From Nitrospira sp. (GTDB lineage: Bacteria; Nitrospirota; Nitrospiria; Nitrospirales; Nitrospiraceae), in NCBI GenBank assembly GCA_013696305.1, contig JACCYV010000084.1, positions 1 to 37,198 on the forward strand: a stretch of 37,198 bases of DNA. Reading direction: 5' to 3'. Every line of letters begins with the position of its first letter. The first letter of the stretch is position 1. Below the pieces are notes generated by a model that was not told the DNA's origin, searched no databases, and worked only from the letters and a program-made list of their open reading frames with translations. Position numbers and translations under genes: made by a program. Positions 20,376 through 29,020 of the stretch are shown one piece after another.

Positions 20376-21340
20376 TCAGACACGGTTTGTCTTCATCCGA
20401 TCTGCCAGATTAATCAGCACTCCTTCCCGCAAGCCAAGGTCGCTCACGAGAACCTTCGTCATTCCCAACGTCTCCATCACTGTAGATAAGATGATCACCC
20501 CCGCGGCGATGACTTCTTCACGCCCTCGTTCCAGACCCGGCATGCCCTCTCGCTGCACTTTCGAGCGGCTCAGCAGTTGCTGCTCCAACTCCTCACGGTT
20601 TCCAGCTTTAAAATGTAATTGTGTATTCTCGCGGGTTCATAGGCCGGCAACTGCTGGGCCATTGCAGCGAGCGACGTAGTCGTTCCCGCCGTACCGACAA
20701 ACGTGAGTCCGCTCAGACGCGGCATGTCCGCCATCGCCGCGGCAGTCTCATCCTTCATCCAGTCGCGCGCCAGTTGAATTTCTTTAGCCGTCGGCGGATC
20801 GTGATGGAGCAGCCGTTCGCTCAATCGCACGACGCCGATGTCGATCGAGCGCGCCATCAACGGTTGCTCAGGGCGATCGAGAATAAACTCTGTACTTCCG
20901 CCGCCGATATCCACCGCCAAAAGGTCAGTCACCGCCGGGGGCAAGCCGGAACGGATGCCCAGCATGGTCCGACGCGCTTCTTCTTCCCCTGAAATGATTT
21001 CAATCTGAAACCCGGCTTCACGGCTCACGAGGTCCAGAAATTCCTCACGGTTCCTGGCATCACGCACCGCACTCGTCGCCACCGCGGTCGAGGCCTTCAC
21101 ATGATAGCCGTCAATCACCTGGCGCCATTCCTTCAACGTGTCGATGACCCGCTCCATGGCGTCGACACGCAATACGCGATCTCGATCAACGCCCTGACCG
21201 AGCCGGAGGAGACGCCGATCGGATCGAAGCTCGCGAAACTCCCCGGACGGGGTGAGTTCGGCAATGAGCAAGCGGCAGGTCAACGTTCCGATATCGATAC
21301 CGGCGAGAATCCGTGAGGAAACAATCGGCGAGATGGTCAT
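20376..21340 (-). pseudogene. ppx: Ppx/GppA phosphatase, broken by a single-base frameshift
   Basis: Ppx/GppA enzymes hydrolyse polyphosphate or pppGpp and have an actin-like ATPase fold. The frame from ATG 21340 (GGAG seven nt upstream) shows AGIDIGTLTCRLLIAEL (phosphate 1), DIGGGSTEF (phosphate 2) and TFVGTAGTTTSLAAM. After ILKLETVR it runs out of frame and stops at 20570. The correct continuation (ELEQQLLSRSKVQREGMPG, GVIILSTVMETLG, DLGLREGVLINLADRM) lies in another frame to 20376. Adding one base near 20590-20596 (AGGAG to AGGGAG) would restore a normal ~320-residue protein. Everything on both sides is well conserved, so this may be a sequencing error or a very recent mutation. Ppx and GppA cannot be told apart here; the symbol is provisional. 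Confidence 0.85.
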
Positions 21341-21713: not shown

Positions 21714-24254
21714 TTAGCTCACATCTCCCAGCGCGAGCTTGGCGTGCCAGCGTCGGAGCATGGCCGTTTTGAACGCCTGGTGCTGAGGCATGGTGAGGCC
21801 GTGGTCCTGTTCGAGTAGCGTATAGGCCTCGTGCCGGGCCTGCTCCAACAGATCAGTGTCACGCACAAGATTGGCCGCCCGAAATTCCGGCACACCCCAC
21901 TGCCGTAGCCCTAAAAATTCGCCGGGACCCCGGATCCGGAGATCTTCTTCGGCAATGACGAACCCATCGTTCGAGTTGACGAGCGCACCCAGCCGTTGTT
22001 GTGCATGTGACGCATTCTGCTCCCGCCTTCCATCCCGGCCGACTCGTTCTCGGGCTTCTCGCGCAAGGTACGACGCCATGAGCAGACAGAGTGATTGGTG
22101 GGCCCCCCGACCGACCCTCCCCCGTAGTTGGTGCAATTGTGCCAACCCAAACCGTTCGGCATGCTCGATGACCATCACCGTCGCATTCGGGACATCCACC
22201 CCGACCTCGATCACGGTGGTCGCGACGAGAACCTGAATCGTTCCGGCCTTGAGGGCCGCCATCGTCCGCTCTTTTTCAGCCGTCTTGAGCCTGCCATGGA
22301 GCAATCCGACCCGCGCCTCTGGAAAGACGTCGCGCTGCAGGTGTTCCGCCCCTTGGATTGCCGCCTTGAGATCAGTCTTCTCAGATTCTTCGACCAGCGG
22401 ATACACGATATAGGCCTGGTGCCCGGCCTTCAATTCGTCCCGAACCAACTGCCAGGCCTTATGCCGCTGCCCTTCGCTGTAAAGCAATGTCCGCACTGGT
22501 TTGCGCCCTGGCGGCAGCATGTCTATCACCGACACATCCAAATCTCCCCAGACCGTCATGGCCAAGGTGCGCGGAATCGGCGTAGCCGTCATCACCAGGA
22601 CGTCCGGCCGATAGCCTTTGTCGAGCAATGACTTTCGCTGCAGGACGCCGAACTTATGCTGTTCATCGACAATCACCAGACCGAGCTTGGCAAACTGTAC
22701 CTTTTTCTGGATCAATGCGTGAGTCCCAATGGCCACCTGCGCCACGCCTGATGCCAACTGTTTCAGTTTGCCATTGCGTGCCTTCGTTTTGCCGCCACTC
22801 GTGAGAAGAACCGTATTCAGCCCCAGTGCCTGCAGCAGCGGTTGGAGATTCAGATAGTGTTGCTCAGCCAGGATTTCTGTCGGGACCATGAGCGCCGTTT
22901 GGTATCCCGACCCGCAGGCCATGACCAGCGCATGGAGCGCCACCACCGTTTTCCCGGAGCCGACATCACCCTGCATCAATCGATTCATCGGCCGCGATGT
23001 CACCATGTCGGCCTGGATCTCGCGGAATACGCGTTCCTGAGCAGATGTGAGCGTGAACGGCAACAGTTGCGCGAGTTGATTTAACTGCGCCACGTTGGGA
23101 TTGAAGCGGAATGGCTTGAGTTCCTCTTTGGTCTCACGCTGACGCAGCACCAGCGCCGCCTGCAACAGAAACAGCTCTTCGAAAGCCAGGCGACGGTGGG
23201 CCGCCGTCGTACCTCGGTCGAGGGCGGGAAGATCCGTTTTTGGTGGGGGAAAATGCACCTGTCGAATCGCGACACTGATCGGCGGCAACCGGTGTCGCGC
23301 GCGAACCGACAATGGCAGCACTTCTTCCACGTCTGTTTCATATTCCGCCAGCAGTCCATGGATCAGGACGCGCATGTGACGGGACGTCCATCCTTTCGTT
23401 TCGTGATAGATCGGGACGATCCGCCCCACATGCAGTAGCTCATCCTCTGCCCCACTCAAGACTTCGAATTGAGTCGCTTCCAACCGTACGTCCATCCATC
23501 CGCCCCGACCGGCAACCACGCGCCCGGCCACTATGATCCGCACGCCTCGTTTCAAAACATCTTCCAAGTATGGCTGATTGAAAAATACGGCGCGCACCGT
23601 CCCCGTGGTATCTTCAACCGCCACATCCAGAATTGACAGACGACGAGACCCCGCGCGAGTCGCCTCCGCGCAAACGATCACCCCGCAGATGATATGCATG
23701 GACCCTGGAACGAGTTTGTTTACCGGCGTAACCACCGAACGGTCTTCGTATCGCCAGGGCAGGGTCCAGAGCGCCTGCTCAATCGTGTGGATTCCCAGAC
23801 GCTCCAACAGCATCGTCCGGTGCGGACCGACCCCTTTCGCAAACTGAATCGGCAGGTCCCATAGCACTCGGGTAGAACCTGAACGAACCAAGCCGGGCAC
23901 AGACCGGCCTTTACTGGGTGAAGTGTCCGGCGGATTGATCTTGTGCTGTTTCTCCTGTAGACGGCGGAGAAGACCCAGCGCTTGCGAGAGCCGATCCTGT
24001 TGTTCGATAGGAGACAGACGTGTGTGGAAATCGACAAATAGATTGCGCAGCGATAACAGCTCCGTTTCAAGCGACTGTGAGTATACTCGCTCGCCAAGCG
24101 CTCCGATTACCTGCTCCGACACAAAACGGTCGAGATTCCTGACCGCCTTGAGATGGGCATAGGCATCGCGGGAGGCAAATTCAATCGGTCTGGTCACACG
24201 TTGAAGGAAGGCTTGAAAAGGGTCGTGAGGGTCGGGCGAATCAGGACGTGGCAT
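21714..24254 (-). CDS. recG: ATP-dependent DNA helicase RecG with N-terminal extension
   Basis: RecG remodels stalled replication forks and branch-migrates Holliday junctions. It has 846 residues, about 150 more than E. coli RecG; the extra length is a helical N-terminal extension (about 1-130) as in some thermophile RecGs. Then come the wedge/OB domain (about 180-280), the helicase domain with Walker A GDVGSGKT (429-436) and DEQH (530-533), and the MTATPIPRTLA motif. The second helicase domain has TTVIEVGVDVPNAT and QLRGRVGRG. The start ATG 24254 has GGAGGGG 7 nt upstream, inside a palindrome shared with the divergent integrase. The first five codons coincide with a 15-bp direct repeat that bounds the adjacent integrative element, so the present leader is probably foreign. 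Confidence 0.96.
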   Translation of the reverse strand: MPRPDSPDPHDPFQAFLQRVTRPIEFASRDAYAHLKAVRNLDRFVSEQVIGALGERVYSQSLETELLSLRNLFVDFHTRLSPIEQQDRLSQALGLLRRLQEKQHKINPPDTSPSKGRSVPGLVRSGSTRVLWDLPIQFAKGVGPHRTMLLERLGIHTIEQALWTLPWRYEDRSVVTPVNKLVPGSMHIICGVIVCAEATRAGSRRLSILDVAVEDTTGTVRAVFFNQPYLEDVLKRGVRIIVAGRVVAGRGGWMDVRLEATQFEVLSGAEDELLHVGRIVPIYHETKGWTSRHMRVLIHGLLAEYETDVEEVLPLSVRARHRLPPISVAIRQVHFPPPKTDLPALDRGTTAAHRRLAFEELFLLQAALVLRQRETKEELKPFRFNPNVAQLNQLAQLLPFTLTSAQERVFREIQADMVTSRPMNRLMQGDVGSGKTVVALHALVMACGSGYQTALMVPTEILAEQHYLNLQPLLQALGLNTVLLTSGGKTKARNGKLKQLASGVAQVAIGTHALIQKKVQFAKLGLVIVDEQHKFGVLQRKSLLDKGYRPDVLVMTATPIPRTLAMTVWGDLDVSVIDMLPPGRKPVRTLLYSEGQRHKAWQLVRDELKAGHQAYIVYPLVEESEKTDLKAAIQGAEHLQRDVFPEARVGLLHGRLKTAEKERTMAALKAGTIQVLVATTVIEVGVDVPNATVMVIEHAERFGLAQLHQLRGRVGRGAHQSLCLLMASYLAREARERVGRDGRREQNASHAQQRLGALVNSNDGFVIAEEDLRIRGPGEFLGLRQWGVPEFRAANLVRDTDLLEQARHEAYTLLEQDHGLTMPQHQAFKTAMLRRWHAKLALGDVS
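24240..24254. repeat. Attachment-site repeat, left copy (attL)
   Basis: ATCAGGACGTGGCAT occurs here and, identically, at 27422-27436. Here it is the reverse complement of the first five codons of recG, and the integrase starts 30 bp away. The match stops exactly at both ends. Confidence 0.7.
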
Positions 24255-24261
24255 TAGAATC

Positions 24262-24278
24262 CCCCTCCATAGGAGGGG
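24262..24278. promoter_or_regulatory. Palindrome holding both divergent ribosome binding sites
   Basis: CCCCTCC-ATA-GGAGGGG is a perfect 7-bp stem with a 3-nt loop. Read rightward its GGAGG lies 8 nt before the integrase ATG. Read leftward its GGAGGGG lies 7 nt before the recG ATG. Either mRNA could hide its own site in this hairpin. Confidence 0.6.
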
Positions 24279-24284
24279 CTACGT

Positions 24285-25793
24285 ATGTTGAAGCCTACGG
24301 TTGTTCAGCAAGGAGAAATCTACCATATCCGCTTCCGCATTGGCTCCCGTCAACTTTGGCTCTCGTTAAAGACGCGGGACGGCGAGCAGGCTAGAATACG
24401 CGCAAAACAGATGGAGGCCGTAGCCGTTACTACCGCTTTTGCCACAAGATTACAACCGAAAGGGGCGCAAGTGAGCCAAATTCGAGAGGACCTAGGGCGG
24501 CTGGTAGACGAGTGGAGACAAGCGGAACTTGACCACACGGAGCGGGCCAAGATTGACAGTGGGGGCTTCGATCCTGCTGACGTGGAAGATCAGACCGACG
24601 TGTACGCGGATTTGCTGGAGGAAGCCCACGAAGCCCTCACCAGCAATAAACAATGGCAAGTGAAGAGCTTGGCGGATGGCCTGGTCGAACAGCATGGGTT
24701 GAAGATGGGCCGCGAGTCAGGCGAGTACAGGCGATTATGTCGGGAGCTGTTGAAAGCGAGGGCAGCTCTGTATGAGGAGGAAATACGGCGGATGGATGGG
24801 CGCTACACGACAGTTCCGTCTGTGGTGGCTCCGTCGCCGTTCACGCCTCCCGCCGCAGTGGTGCCTTCGATTGATCTTCGAAAATCCTTTGACTCGTATA
24901 TGTCGCAGCACACCTACAGGCGATCAGTGACTCAACGTGATATCGAACTCACGCTCAATGAGTTCCTTAAAATGTCCGGTCTGGACTGGAAGACGGTCGA
25001 TGTACGACGCGACTGCGTGAAGGCGACGTGTACCAAGTGGAAGGATCTGCAACTCGCCAGGGTGGCGGCGCGATCGTTCAACAAGAAGCTGTCGTACCTT
25101 CAGCATCTGTTCCGCTGGATGGTCAAGCACGACATGATTGAGAAGAACCCTTTGGAAGGATTGGGCGTCGCCACACGGCAGCAACGGGTGGAGTCGAACG
25201 CCCGAAAGCCGTTCACCGCGGAGCAGATGCGGCTGCTTCTGGACTCCCTACTCAATACCGGAAAAAAAGACTCCCGCTTCTGGTGTGCCGTGTTGGTCAT
25301 GCATACAGGGATGCGAGGCGGCGAAGCCTTCCCGCTCTGCGTGGATCAAGTGAAGGAGCAGGGCGGCGTTGATTACCTCGACCTGTACGAGGATGAATCC
25401 CGCGAGCTGCTGCTCAAGAATGCGGCCTCTACGCGCAAGGTCCCTGTCTCTTCTGCATTGCGCGGTCTCGGGTTCGTGGATTTTGTGGCGACACGACGGA
25501 AGGCGGGAAATAAGGCGCGTCTTTTCCCTGGTCTTTCGCGGACCTGGGATGTGTCGATGTACGTCAAGCGAGCAATGCGGAGAGTGGGGATTGTAGATCC
25601 AGCGTTGACCTTGCACAGTACTCGCCACTTCTATGCCACTCAGTATGTCCGCGCCGGGGTGCAGTCGGAGATTCGTCATCGACTGCTAGGACATTCCCTT
25701 CCGGGCTCAACGCAAAACACCGATTACGTAGAATTGAATAACCTGTTTCCACTTGAGGTCTTGCGAGATGCCCATAAGAAGGTAAGGTTCTGA
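24285..25793 (+). CDS. int: Tyrosine recombinase / integrase
   Basis: Catalyses site-specific integration and excision. It has 502 residues with a complete active site: Arg344 in TGMRGGEA, Lys378, His444 and Arg447 in LHSTRHFYA, His470 in LLGH, and nucleophile Tyr481 in NTDY. The N-terminal ~55 residues (YHIRFRIGSRQLWLSLKTRD) look like a phage-integrase N-terminal beta-strand domain. A long helical linker follows, with a SAM-like core-binding domain at about 195-290. The ribosome binding site GGAGG is 8 nt upstream, within a palindrome. It starts 30 bp inside the left direct repeat, as usual for an integrase that acts on the adjacent site. The gene looks intact, so the element could still excise. 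Confidence 0.95.
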   Translation: MLKPTVVQQGEIYHIRFRIGSRQLWLSLKTRDGEQARIRAKQMEAVAVTTAFATRLQPKGAQVSQIREDLGRLVDEWRQAELDHTERAKIDSGGFDPADVEDQTDVYADLLEEAHEALTSNKQWQVKSLADGLVEQHGLKMGRESGEYRRLCRELLKARAALYEEEIRRMDGRYTTVPSVVAPSPFTPPAAVVPSIDLRKSFDSYMSQHTYRRSVTQRDIELTLNEFLKMSGLDWKTVDVRRDCVKATCTKWKDLQLARVAARSFNKKLSYLQHLFRWMVKHDMIEKNPLEGLGVATRQQRVESNARKPFTAEQMRLLLDSLLNTGKKDSRFWCAVLVMHTGMRGGEAFPLCVDQVKEQGGVDYLDLYEDESRELLLKNAASTRKVPVSSALRGLGFVDFVATRRKAGNKARLFPGLSRTWDVSMYVKRAMRRVGIVDPALTLHSTRHFYATQYVRAGVQSEIRHRLLGHSLPGSTQNTDYVELNNLFPLEVLRDAHKKVRF

Positions 25794-25928
25794 GAGAGAG
25801 ACGAGCCTACTGAACCCCACCGGCCAAGAGCTGGAGGCCGTCAACGACCGACTAGAAGGACGCTTCGGGAGGCGGTGGAGAGGGTGAAGTTCTGAGTGTC
25901 CGTGATCGGCTTGGTATGGGCGATTTGC

Positions 25929-25957
25929 TTGACAGCTTTCGAGCCCCATAATACCCT
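25929..25957 (+). promoter_or_regulatory. Possible promoter for the PH-domain gene
   Basis: A consensus TTGACA (25929-25934) is followed after 17 bp by a weak TACCCT (25952-25957). The gene starts 38 bp further on behind GAGGAG. Confidence 0.4.
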
Positions 25958-25994
25958 CGATTTGATAGGACACAATACACGAAAGAGGAGAAGC

Positions 25995-26482
25995 ATGGGA
26001 TATATACATAGCAACCTGATGAAGGGCGAGAAAATCGTCTACCAGTCGAAGGTTCACTGGTTCATCTTCGTGCCGGGCTGTGCAATGCTGTTGTTCGGTA
26101 TTTTTTTCACACTGTGCTCTAAAAGTCTTGGCAGTGATGGTCCAGCCATGTTTTCATTTTTTGCTGGAATCTTCTTTTTCGCTGGAATCATATATCTGGT
26201 TAAAGCATTTATCACAGCGGCGTCCATAGAGTTGGCAGTCACGTCAAAGCGAGTCATCGCTAAGTTCGGTTTCATAAGCAGAACGACGGTTGAGCTGAAT
26301 CACAGCAAGGTTGAAAGCTTCAATGTGGATCAAGGTGTCCTTGGAAGAATCTTTGGATTCGGAACGTTGGTCTTAATGGCACAGGAGGCGGCAAGACTCC
26401 GATTCCTGACGTGGATGCTCCGTTGGAATTTAGACGGCATGCCATGGAAGTGATTGATGCCAGCCAAACGAAGGCTGCTTAG
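25995..26482 (+). pseudogene. PH-domain (YdbS/bPH2-like) membrane protein with late frameshift
   Basis: The start ATG 25995 (MGYIHSNLMKGEKIVYQSKVH) has AGAGGAG close upstream. The protein has two membrane helices (FIFVPGCAMLLFGIFFTL; FFAGIFFFAGIIYLV), then the bacterial PH-like segment. That segment includes ELAVTSKRVIAKFGFISR and VESFNVDQGVLGRIFGFGTLVL. The natural ending (NGTGGGKTPIPDVDAPLEFR, then RHAMEVIDA) is in another frame. One A seems missing at about 26375 (TTAATGG for TTAAATGG). The restored protein would be about 162 residues, ending at 26482; as written the frame ends at 26453. This stretch is AT-richer than its surroundings, fitting acquisition with the element. Only the last ~25 residues are affected, so the altered protein might still fold. 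Confidence 0.75.
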
Positions 26483-26571
26483 CAGGACTGAATAGGGGCG
26501 ACTACGCTAGACCCTTAGCCTCAGCGGAACCTCTGATAGACACTTCTCGTAGACCCTTCTCGCGGTGGGCG

Positions 26572-26754
26572 CTATTCGACACCCAGTTGCTTTCGAATGG
26601 ACTTGCATGTGATGTCGTTCAGCTCGTTATGTCGAGGAACGGCAGCGACCGCAGCAGCGATCTTTGGATTTCGGTAGATGTCGTGATTGCTGCCGTGCCG
26701 GTCGAGTATACAACCAGTGGCTTCAATCTCGCGAATGAACCGACGACGTTTCAA
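26572..26754 (-). CDS. hicA: HicA-type mRNA interferase toxin
   Basis: HicA toxins bind and cleave mRNA when released from HicB. This 60-residue protein has the typical compact dsRBD-like form: MKRRRFIREIEATGC, the catalytic His24 in HGSNHDIYRN, AVPRHNELND, and a final IRKQLGV. It starts with TTG 26754, whose last bases overlap the stop of the upstream hicB as TTGA, so translation is coupled. The antitoxin-first order is the less common of the two hic arrangements. It lies in the integrative element and probably stabilises it. Confidence 0.88.
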   Translation of the reverse strand: MKRRRFIREIEATGCILDRHGSNHDIYRNPKIAAAVAAVPRHNELNDITCKSIRKQLGVE

Positions 26755-27002
26755 GCGAAGACAGGTATTTCGATGGGAATAGAAAGACTGTGAGGGTAGA
26801 CGGTCGTGTGGGTGGTAGCGGTGGTGGCGTCACCTTTGAAATACTCCACCATCAGTTGATGAGCATCACGGATATTTTCTTGAAGCTCGTCCAGGCTTTT
26901 GCCCTGACTGATAACGGCGGGAACTTCGGCAAGCTGGCCCACAAACCAGTCACCGTCTTTCGAGTAGTTCAAGGTCAAGGTGTTGGTGGTGTGCTTGTGC
27001 AT
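26751..27002 (-). CDS. hicB: HicB-type antitoxin, short form
   Basis: HicB neutralises HicA by covering its active site. The 83-residue protein (start chosen at ATG 27002, MHKHTTNTLTLNYSKDGDWF) shows the partial RNase H-like fold: GDWFVGQLAEVPAVISQGKSLDELQENIRDAHQLMVEYF. A GTG at 27017 adding five residues is possible; neither start has a strong ribosome binding site. No helix-turn-helix or ribbon-helix-helix DNA-binding domain follows. The tail instead ends with a short strand (LSIPIEIPVFA), so autoregulation would need another mechanism. It overlaps hicA by 3 nt. Confidence 0.82.
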   Translation of the reverse strand: MHKHTTNTLTLNYSKDGDWFVGQLAEVPAVISQGKSLDELQENIRDAHQLMVEYFKGDATTATTHTTVYPHSLSIPIEIPVFA

Positions 27003-27017
27003 GTGAGTACTCGGCAC

Positions 27018-27421
27018 AGGATCTTTCGTGAAAGAAGTGTATCATAGACTACTGCTACTATCTACTGCTGCTGCTTAACTGTGCGACAACCTTGGAACAA
27101 CCCCATTAATTAACCTCAAGCATAATTAACCTCAAGCACCGTGTAGGCGTGTGCGAAGAAAGGTAGGGGCCACGGGGGGCGCGACCGATTCCACGCTCAG
27201 CGATAGGCTGACAGATTTTTTTATATTTTTTCGGTTAAAGGTGGATCGAAGGCACAGCTGAGCGCCTTCCCGAACCTCTCTCCCAGGCCGCAAACTGACA
27301 GACTTATCCACAGAGTGGTAGCAAAAGCGTTCCGTTTACTACCGCTTTTGACGTTTCTTTACTACCGCTTTTTGAAAAGACCTTCATTTGGCGTGGGGTT
27401 TGGAGGGGGCGCTTGACCCCT
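27018..27421. other. Repeat-rich right end of the element, origin-like or integrase arm region
   Basis: This is non-coding. From left to right it holds a tandem pair of AATTAACCTCAAGCA (27108-27122 and 27124-27138). An AT tract follows (27215-27231). CTGACAGA occurs twice (27208-27215, 27295-27302). A perfect DnaA box TTATCCACA lies at 27304-27312. Two copies of TTTACTACCGCTTTT (27335-27349 and 27358-27372) are 23 bp apart. The arrangement resembles an iteron origin. Because it ends 50 bp from the right attachment repeat, the last repeats could equally be integrase arm-binding sites. Confidence 0.5.
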
Positions 27422-27436
27422 ATCAGGACGTGGCAT
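27422..27436. repeat. Attachment-site repeat, right copy (attR)
   Basis: This is identical to 24240-24254. Beyond it the minus-strand frame continues upstream in phase with recG to an ATG near 27453 (MAVIRSRLR before the repeat). The native recG start therefore probably lies on this side. Confidence 0.7.
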
Positions 27437-27516
27437 CCTGAGGCGGGATCGTATCACAGCCATGCCTGCTGCTCAACGAGGGGCCGCCTTACCTAAGACC
27501 GGTTTTGCGACTTTCC

Positions 27517-27577: not shown

Positions 27578-29020
27578 ATGTATCGACGCAATATCAGACA
27601 TATTCTTGGTCCGCTCGCGGTTCTGATCAGCCTCTTCATTTTTTATCAAGCGTGGCTAAAGCCCCATTATTTTCATGAGACACCGCCTCCTTCCCCACAA
27701 GTCCTCGTTGAAGATACGCCCGCCGCGTCTTCAGCTCCCTTATCGCGGCCTCAGGAACGTGGATTTGTGGAGCTCAAACGGTCTCGAACCATCGATCCCG
27801 TCAGCATACCGGTTCCGAAGCATTCTGAATTGCTCGGCGCCATTCATGAAGAGCTGGAAAAACGCAATATCGCCTTGGCGGAGACTAAACTCGAGGAGCT
27901 TCCATCATCGCTCTTTACGGAATCGGCCACCAAGCGGCACGTGGCTATCTTATGGAACAACCTCGGAATCCTTCAAGAAAAGGACGGGGGAACTGAAGTT
28001 TCAGTGAAGGCCTTTAAAAAAGCGGTTTCCCTCGATCCTCAAAACGCGGTTGCTCATCTCAATCTCGCCAATGCTTACTGGGGCCTGCGGGACCCGGCGC
28101 TCACGGAAGAGTTTCTGAGGAAAGTGTTGAGCCTGGCCCCGGACGAGCCATTCCCGCATGTCGCCCTCGCTGACTTTCTACAAGAGAAGGATCGCATCAC
28201 AGAGGCAAGCAAACACCTGGCCCATGCAAAGGAGAGGATCAAGAAGGACCCCGGCCTTCAATCCTATTTGAAGGCGGTCACTGCGAAAATACATCGCGTC
28301 GAGAAAGTGGAGGACAAGCTATTCACTCACAAGAGCGTTCACTTCACGGTCAAGTATGACGGCAATGACGATCCCACAACATGGACCACCGTCCTTGATA
28401 TTCTCGAAGAGGCCTATCGAGAGGTTGGTCAGAAGGTCAATTTTTTCCCCTCAAGACCAATCATTGTCGTTCTCCACACGAAGAATCAGTTCCAAGGCGC
28501 CACCGGCGGCCCCAGTTGGGCAGACGGTTTGTTCGACTCTGTCCTCGGACGCATTCACATTCCAACTCAGGGCGCCGCCACAGATCTCGCCTGGCTAACA
28601 CGGGTACTTCGTCACGAGTTCGTCCATGCCCTGATTCAGGGGGAATTAGGAGAAACTGGGGGAGCAATTCCAACCTGGCTGAACGAAGGATTGGCAATAC
28701 AACTAGCCGGTGATCACTGGCAGGAAGTGAAAAATCTGACAGACGGCGAACAGAGTCTGGTTCCATTAACGGCACTTGAGGGTAGCTGGGAGAGCCTACC
28801 GGCAGAGAAGGTCAGCATAGCCTATATGGAAGCTAATGCCGCCACGCACTATCTGATTCAACGATTCGGCATGTATAAGGTACACGAAGTTCTCCTCCAC
28901 TTGAAAACTCGTCACACAATCGCCGCCGCCATGCAAGACAGGCTTCTGTTGTCCTACGATCACTTCCAAAAACAGTGGGCCGACAGCCTGGGAGCCACGT
29001 TGTCTCAGCCGAAGTCTTAA
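27578..29020 (+). CDS. Membrane-anchored TPR protein with zinc metallopeptidase domain
   Basis: This 480-residue protein starts at ATG 27578 behind AAGGAA. One N-terminal membrane segment (ILGPLAVLISLFIFYQAWL) anchors it with the rest outside the cytoplasm. Residues about 95-220 form tetratricopeptide repeats (ILWNNLGILQEKDGG, AVAHLNLANAYWGL). The C-terminal domain is a peptidase of the MA clan: HEFVH at 346-350 supplies two zinc ligands and the catalytic Glu. PTWLNEGLAIQLAG, with Glu370, fits the third ligand. Such TPR-peptidase fusions are common in Deltaproteobacteria and Nitrospirota but uncharacterised; the substrate is unknown. Its stop lies 4 bp from the convergent gene's stop. Confidence 0.85.
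   Translation: MYRRNIRHILGPLAVLISLFIFYQAWLKPHYFHETPPPSPQVLVEDTPAASSAPLSRPQERGFVELKRSRTIDPVSIPVPKHSELLGAIHEELEKRNIALAETKLEELPSSLFTESATKRHVAILWNNLGILQEKDGGTEVSVKAFKKAVSLDPQNAVAHLNLANAYWGLRDPALTEEFLRKVLSLAPDEPFPHVALADFLQEKDRITEASKHLAHAKERIKKDPGLQSYLKAVTAKIHRVEKVEDKLFTHKSVHFTVKYDGNDDPTTWTTVLDILEEAYREVGQKVNFFPSRPIIVVLHTKNQFQGATGGPSWADGLFDSVLGRIHIPTQGAATDLAWLTRVLRHEFVHALIQGELGETGGAIPTWLNEGLAIQLAGDHWQEVKNLTDGEQSLVPLTALEGSWESLPAEKVSIAYMEANAATHYLIQRFGMYKVHEVLLHLKTRHTIAAAMQDRLLLSYDHFQKQWADSLGATLSQPKS

Follow-up and report, generated by a model that had tools for sequence, protein, structure and literature searches.

Other bacteria are already known to carry mobile elements inserted at the start of housekeeping genes. 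SpyCIM1 integrates at the 5′ end of mutL and blocks its transcription, which is restored by excision (PMC4689407), and in a decayed SpyCIM1 relative mutL owes its rescue to a promoter within the int pseudogene (PMC3430984). Islands integrated at the 5′ end of dusA replace that end, with putative promoters found afterwards (PMC4482086). In ICEclc (promoter Pcirc) and ICEKp1 (promoter P3′end), int is driven in the circular form by a promoter of the 3′ end (PMC2892462, PMC13023037).

Here, we analysed a window of 37,198 nucleotides, the whole stretch of Nitrospira DNA under study, in which an element lies at the start codon of recG. It is very probable, all evidence considered, that ATGCCACGTCCTGA, a conserved sequence at the recG start codon, is the integration site of a tyrosine-integrase element whose family is related to prophages. 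No relevant paper on recG as an attachment site was found in a literature search of partial coverage, and recG as a target appears to be new in the papers searched.

The recG start codon as an insertion site

The gene recG (21714–24254, minus strand) encodes an intact ATP-dependent DNA helicase of 846 aa and is the sole copy found in the genome. An exact 15-bp direct repeat, ATCAGGACGTGGCAT, is located at 24240–24254 (attL core) and 27422–27436 (attR core), bracketing 3.2 kb that contain a tyrosine integrase, a PH-domain gene, HicA and a HicB-like partner. The initial annotation had reported this repeat around the integrase at the recG start, and we found it at the same coordinates and unique when up to 2 mismatches are allowed: no third match exists in the window, where 0.11 matches would be expected by chance, and two matches occurred in none of the shuffled sequences. 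Moreover, the 13-bp inner part of the core is found exactly only at attL and attR in the whole 3.25-Mb draft genome, so that this assembly holds the integrated form only, with no separate copy of attB or attP. On the minus strand, both copies of the core read ATGCCACGTCCTGAT, with the recG ATG as its first codon followed by the next four recG codons; the start codon is regenerated on integration, as had been proposed. A tRNA gene that could be the true target was searched for in the window with ARAGORN and none was detected.

Among the genomes of the genus that were searched, recG is present in 28 of 29, and in 26 congeneric genomes the site is empty, recG being joined directly to the sequence that now lies beyond 27436 in the window. 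The claim that the native upstream DNA was displaced by 3.2 kb is thus borne out by these uninterrupted junctions, and the sequence at 24255–24285 is present in none of the relatives lacking the element. The native divergent neighbour of recG, a TPR/Peptidase_MA_2 protein (metallopeptidase), follows at 27578–29020 (plus strand).

The site is occupied in a second species, the Nitrospiraceae genome Hainich-H41 (G028). Its integrase is 75% identical to that of the window, has the same orientation and begins 27 nt from the recG ATG, and a 15-bp core, ATGCCACGTCCTGAA, is identical at both ends of the element (attL at C47:7530–7544, attR at C38:7014–7028). Beyond the repeat of its attR come the native recG promoter and, after 162 nt, the metallopeptidase gene; the element itself is spread over two contigs whose ends fall inside it. 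DNA likeness of the two elements is limited to two stretches, one at the int/recG end (76% over 1612 bp) and one covering the final portion of the right end and its flank (72% over 286 bp). As read from both genomes, the site has received a related but different element in the second species, with attachment sites built alike, and the recG start is a real, reused insertion site. A chance repeat or an assembly artefact beside an unrelated integrase might be suspected in a draft of 379 contigs, where two genes on the contig (ppx/gppA and the PH gene) are frameshifted. However, the repeat is not expected by chance, and the same arrangement is found in two genomes with species-specific core variants, next to relatives with empty sites; we give this explanation almost no credence.

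In about 25 genomes, recG codons 2–4 (CCA CGT CCT) show zero synonymous changes, whereas the modal fraction at comparable codons elsewhere is about 0.6. This indicates conservation of the start region at the nucleic-acid level, so that the element finds a reliable target in it. Together with the preceding bases, attB reads CAGG-ATGCCACGT-CCTG, an inverted repeat (24240–24254 with 27437–27440 in the window). It is worth mentioning that this inverted repeat of the recG start region may itself be an operator or a leaderless-initiation structure.

Integrase, arms and cargo of the two elements

The integrase (24285–25793, plus strand) is full length with 502 aa. Its C-terminal part matches Phage_integrase above the Pfam cut-off and its N-terminal part is DUF6538-like, below the cut-off. 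R344, H444/R447, H470 and Y481 are invariant in an alignment of four proteins, the lysine of the R-K-HxxR-H-Y set being placed without certainty. Apart from the Hainich-H41 protein, neither the family nor a set of 396 genomes from the phylum yielded an integrase of more than 40% identity; further relatives were found neither in viral contigs nor in GTDB contigs beyond the record of Hainich-H41 itself, and the closest sequenced phages share 29% identity over 41% of the integrase.

Three copies of a putative arm-type repeat, CTACCGCTTTT, are present in the window on the plus strand, one on the left inside int (24430–24440) and two on the right (27339–27349 and 27362–27372) that are 23 bp apart. 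The right pair is also present, with the same spacing, in Hainich-H41, and such a pair was detected in 2 of 175 genomes of the family, namely these two. Binding of the integrase to these repeats is predicted, and strand exchange would then take place within ATGCCACGT. The motif was encountered elsewhere as well: among the viral contigs searched for the pair, one Bacteroides-like phage contig of IMG/VR (L072:4752–4785) carries CTACCGCTTTT-N12-CTACCGCTTTT directly upstream of a different integrase, a match of 22 bases that is improbable by chance and from which we draw no link to the window element.

The contigs of the Hainich-H41 element encode homologues of T7_gp14 and of a T7 capsid assembly protein, plus a serine recombinase; because of these T7-like virion genes, the element is probably a prophage. 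Neither an excisionase gene nor a virion gene was recognised in the 3.2-kb element of the window. Its cargo includes a bPH_2 (membrane-flanked) domain gene at 25995–26482 (plus strand) that occupies two frames, 25995–26453 and 26378–26482: the gene is frameshifted near 26375, with its C-terminal part, GTGGGKTPIPDVDAPLEFRR, in the other frame. The plasmid homologue trbW runs on in one frame where the window gene breaks. Among the matches listed, the alignments of PH homologues end at residue 125–127, except for one plasmid protein aligned to residue 147. The short C-terminal piece, taken alone, received no support from Pfam or PHROGs, whereas the sequence of the trbW homologue did support it, and the PH cargo has zero relatives in the genus at E 1e-8. 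The HicA toxin (26572–26754, minus strand) is recognised by Pfam above the cut-off (E 5e-10); the HicB-like antitoxin (26751–27017, minus strand, ATG at 27000–27002) gives a weak family match below the cut-off (E about 0.006–0.09). Of the intact integrase, PH gene and HicAB initially annotated, the full-length integrase and HicA hold, but the PH gene is broken and HicB remains a weak match. Between hicB and the right arm, a perfect tandem duplication of TAATTAACCTCAAGCA (2 × 16 bp, 27107–27138) was also noticed, and a terminator-like hairpin followed by a T run lies at 27197–27211 (plus strand), the number of such sites not being above the shuffled expectation.

The lack of a recognised virion or excision gene and the broken PH gene fit a reduced derivative, and reduction or decay is the probable origin of the window copy; it could also be a satellite. 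Nonetheless, the PH frameshift is less certain as biology since another gene on the same contig has its frame split. This gene, a ppx/gppA-type phosphatase at 20376–21340 (minus strand), is divided over two frames (Pfam positions 8–222 and 223–283). It is one open frame of 323–329 aa in 4 of 5 relatives, the fifth being cut by a contig end, and its split could be decay or an assembly indel.

The displaced recG promoter and the new recG leader

As read from the two junctions, recombination at the 15-bp core keeps the recG frame whole, puts the conserved promoter beyond the end that faces away from recG and brings element DNA directly upstream of recG. The displaced native promoter (27437–27476, minus strand) consists of a −35 box TTGAGC at 27471–27476, a 17-bp spacer and a −10 box TACGAT at 27448–27453, 11 nt from the ATG of the core, and now points into the element towards hicBA. 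We compared 28 recG upstream sequences, i.e. 26 empty sites and the two attR sites, and a promoter TTGAGY-N17-TAnnAT is kept in all 28. Its −35 box is TTGAGC or TTGAGT, its spacer is exactly 17 bp and its −10 box is TACGAT, TACCAT or TAGGAT; it ends 10–11 nt before the ATG, one of the 28 being listed with a gap of 14 since the match there begins after the ATG. A TGn directly 5′ of the −10 box makes it of the extended −10 type. The gap between the −10 box and the ATG leaves too little room for a usual leader with a ribosome-binding site, from which we infer a leaderless or near-leaderless native recG mRNA. Integration separates recG, a probably leaderless gene, from its own promoter. The displacement itself is visible in the sequence, the promoter being recognised by its conservation; the effects on recG, int and the cargo are predicted.

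The initial annotation had read the same stretch as coding for extra N-terminal residues of an original RecG. An in-frame upstream ATG does exist, at 27461–27463 and not near 27453 as given, the frame being open to it here, and a minority of relatives have an in-frame ATG too. Yet most relatives have none, in most of them a stop codon lies within the −35 box, and a gap shorter by 1 nt breaks the upstream frame in 5 of 28; the region is a promoter conserved in 28 of 28. A longer RecG N-terminus is therefore very improbable, and we rejected the extension on account of these frame-breaking single-base indels and the conserved promoter.

The left end of the element (24255–24284) forms a leader common to int (plus strand) and recG (minus strand). 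It contains a palindromic pair of Shine-Dalgarno-like motifs, AGGAGGGG at 24271–24278 for int and GGAGGGGG at 24261–24268 for recG, the latter standing 6 nt before the recG ATG as the mirror of int's own Shine-Dalgarno. The notion that recG now uses an element-supplied leader is correct as anatomy, but the Hainich-H41 leader is not like that of the window and has no Shine-Dalgarno motif for recG. Since it is not shared by both elements, the leader shows no evident sign of having evolved for rescue.

This bears on the question of whether recG is constitutively rescued by an element promoter lying antisense in int, the palindromic leader serving as Shine-Dalgarno for both genes and integration being neutral. 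The position of GGAGGGGG in the window would suit such a rescue, as would the cryptic promoter known in the SpyCIM5 int pseudogene (PMC3430984) and the putative promoters found after integration of dusA islands (PMC4482086). However, in addition to the missing motif in Hainich-H41, the search for a replacement promoter upstream of recG at attL gave best sigma70-like scores of 5.1 and 6.8 in the two elements, within background. The rescue is possible, if somewhat doubtful. The promoter model is E. coli-like and gives the conserved native recG promoter only 6.1, so the lack of a recG promoter at attL is not proven.

Under the explanation that we favour, recG, cut off from its leaderless-type promoter, would have weak expression or depend on a cryptic promoter within int, and a dependence of recG expression on the element is plausible. 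The captured promoter reads through attR to hicBA, about 430 nt away, and may transcribe this right-end cargo.

A predicted integrase promoter across the joined ends

Joining of the two ends into attP is predicted to assemble a strong promoter upstream of int whose spacer contains the core. In the window, the predicted −35 half, TTGACC, comes from the right end (27413–27418, plus strand) and the predicted −10 half, TAGAAT, from the left end (24255–24260, plus strand), giving TTGACC-N18-TAGAAT. In Hainich-H41 the halves are TTGACT and TACACT, giving TTGACT-N18-TACACT, and the consensus across both attP sites is TTGACY-N18-TAnAnT. The scores are 11.5 (window) and 12.3 (Hainich-H41), against 10.9 for the 99th percentile of the best match in random 150-bp pieces, and random flanks placed around the core reach them in 0.15% and 0.06% of trials, respectively. 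In the integrated state, at attL, the best int-ward scores are 6.4 and 4.0. The two split promoters come from related elements and so count as less than fully independent observations. Promoters formed at a junction are known from transposon circles of the IS911 type, which the predicted split int promoter resembles.

It is predicted from this arrangement that circularisation should turn the integrase on and integration should turn it off: integrase would be made from the circle and its production would fall off after integration. Perhaps, then, a single recombination event acts as a promoter exchange that unplugs recG, hands its promoter to the cargo and splits the int promoter, both states being locked by promoter architecture alone and recG activity reporting the state of the element; we offer this tentatively, as a rather unlikely idea. 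Still less likely, in our opinion, is a conditional switch in which the element excises and reintegrates with growth or damage, turning recG on and off by analogy with mutL under SpyCIM1. Its geometry is that of SpyCIM1 at the mutL 5′ end (PMC4689407, PMC3430984), the promoter is displaced in both Nitrospira-like cases, the integrase looks intact and a circle promoter is predicted; yet no excisionase is recognised in the 3.2-kb copy, and its own assembly contains two exact sites only, with no separate attB or attP.

This element extends to recG, a replication-fork repair helicase, the small set of repair genes that serve at their start as an attachment site, and the host belongs to a nitrifier-related lineage in which we found no earlier report of such a site. 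Should it silence recG, the element would alter the way its host recombines and repairs DNA. The locus further offers a clear and testable case of a predicted int promoter that exists only in the circle, with the attachment core as its spacer, and a case of a host promoter captured by an element. No earlier description of an integrase promoter split by attP was found in the literature searched, and for SpyCI none was found in the text consulted (PMC4689407, PMC3430984).

Among known systems, the element resembles SpyCI (SpyCIM1 of Streptococcus pyogenes) in being phage-like and inserted at the 5′ end of a repair gene that is parted from its promoter. It differs from SpyCI, a system with regulated excision and a mutator phenotype, in its host phylum and in its target, recG. 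As with the dusA-associated islands, the integrase targets a conserved 5′ stretch of a housekeeping gene and the element supplies new 5′ sequence; here, however, the core begins with the start codon, leaving every residue in place, and is immediately preceded by the native promoter. Homologous integrases of the same bacterial family, 29–40% identical, have a tRNA gene just before int in 11 of 14 loci; they adjoin tRNA-His, -Glu, -Leu or -Ser genes, unlike the recG clade at the start of a protein gene, which therefore appears to have changed its target. Finally, circularisation would place a promoter before int as in ICEclc and ICEKp1, but where those elements carry a whole promoter in the 3′ end, the predicted −35 and −10 boxes here lie on opposite ends, with the core as spacer.
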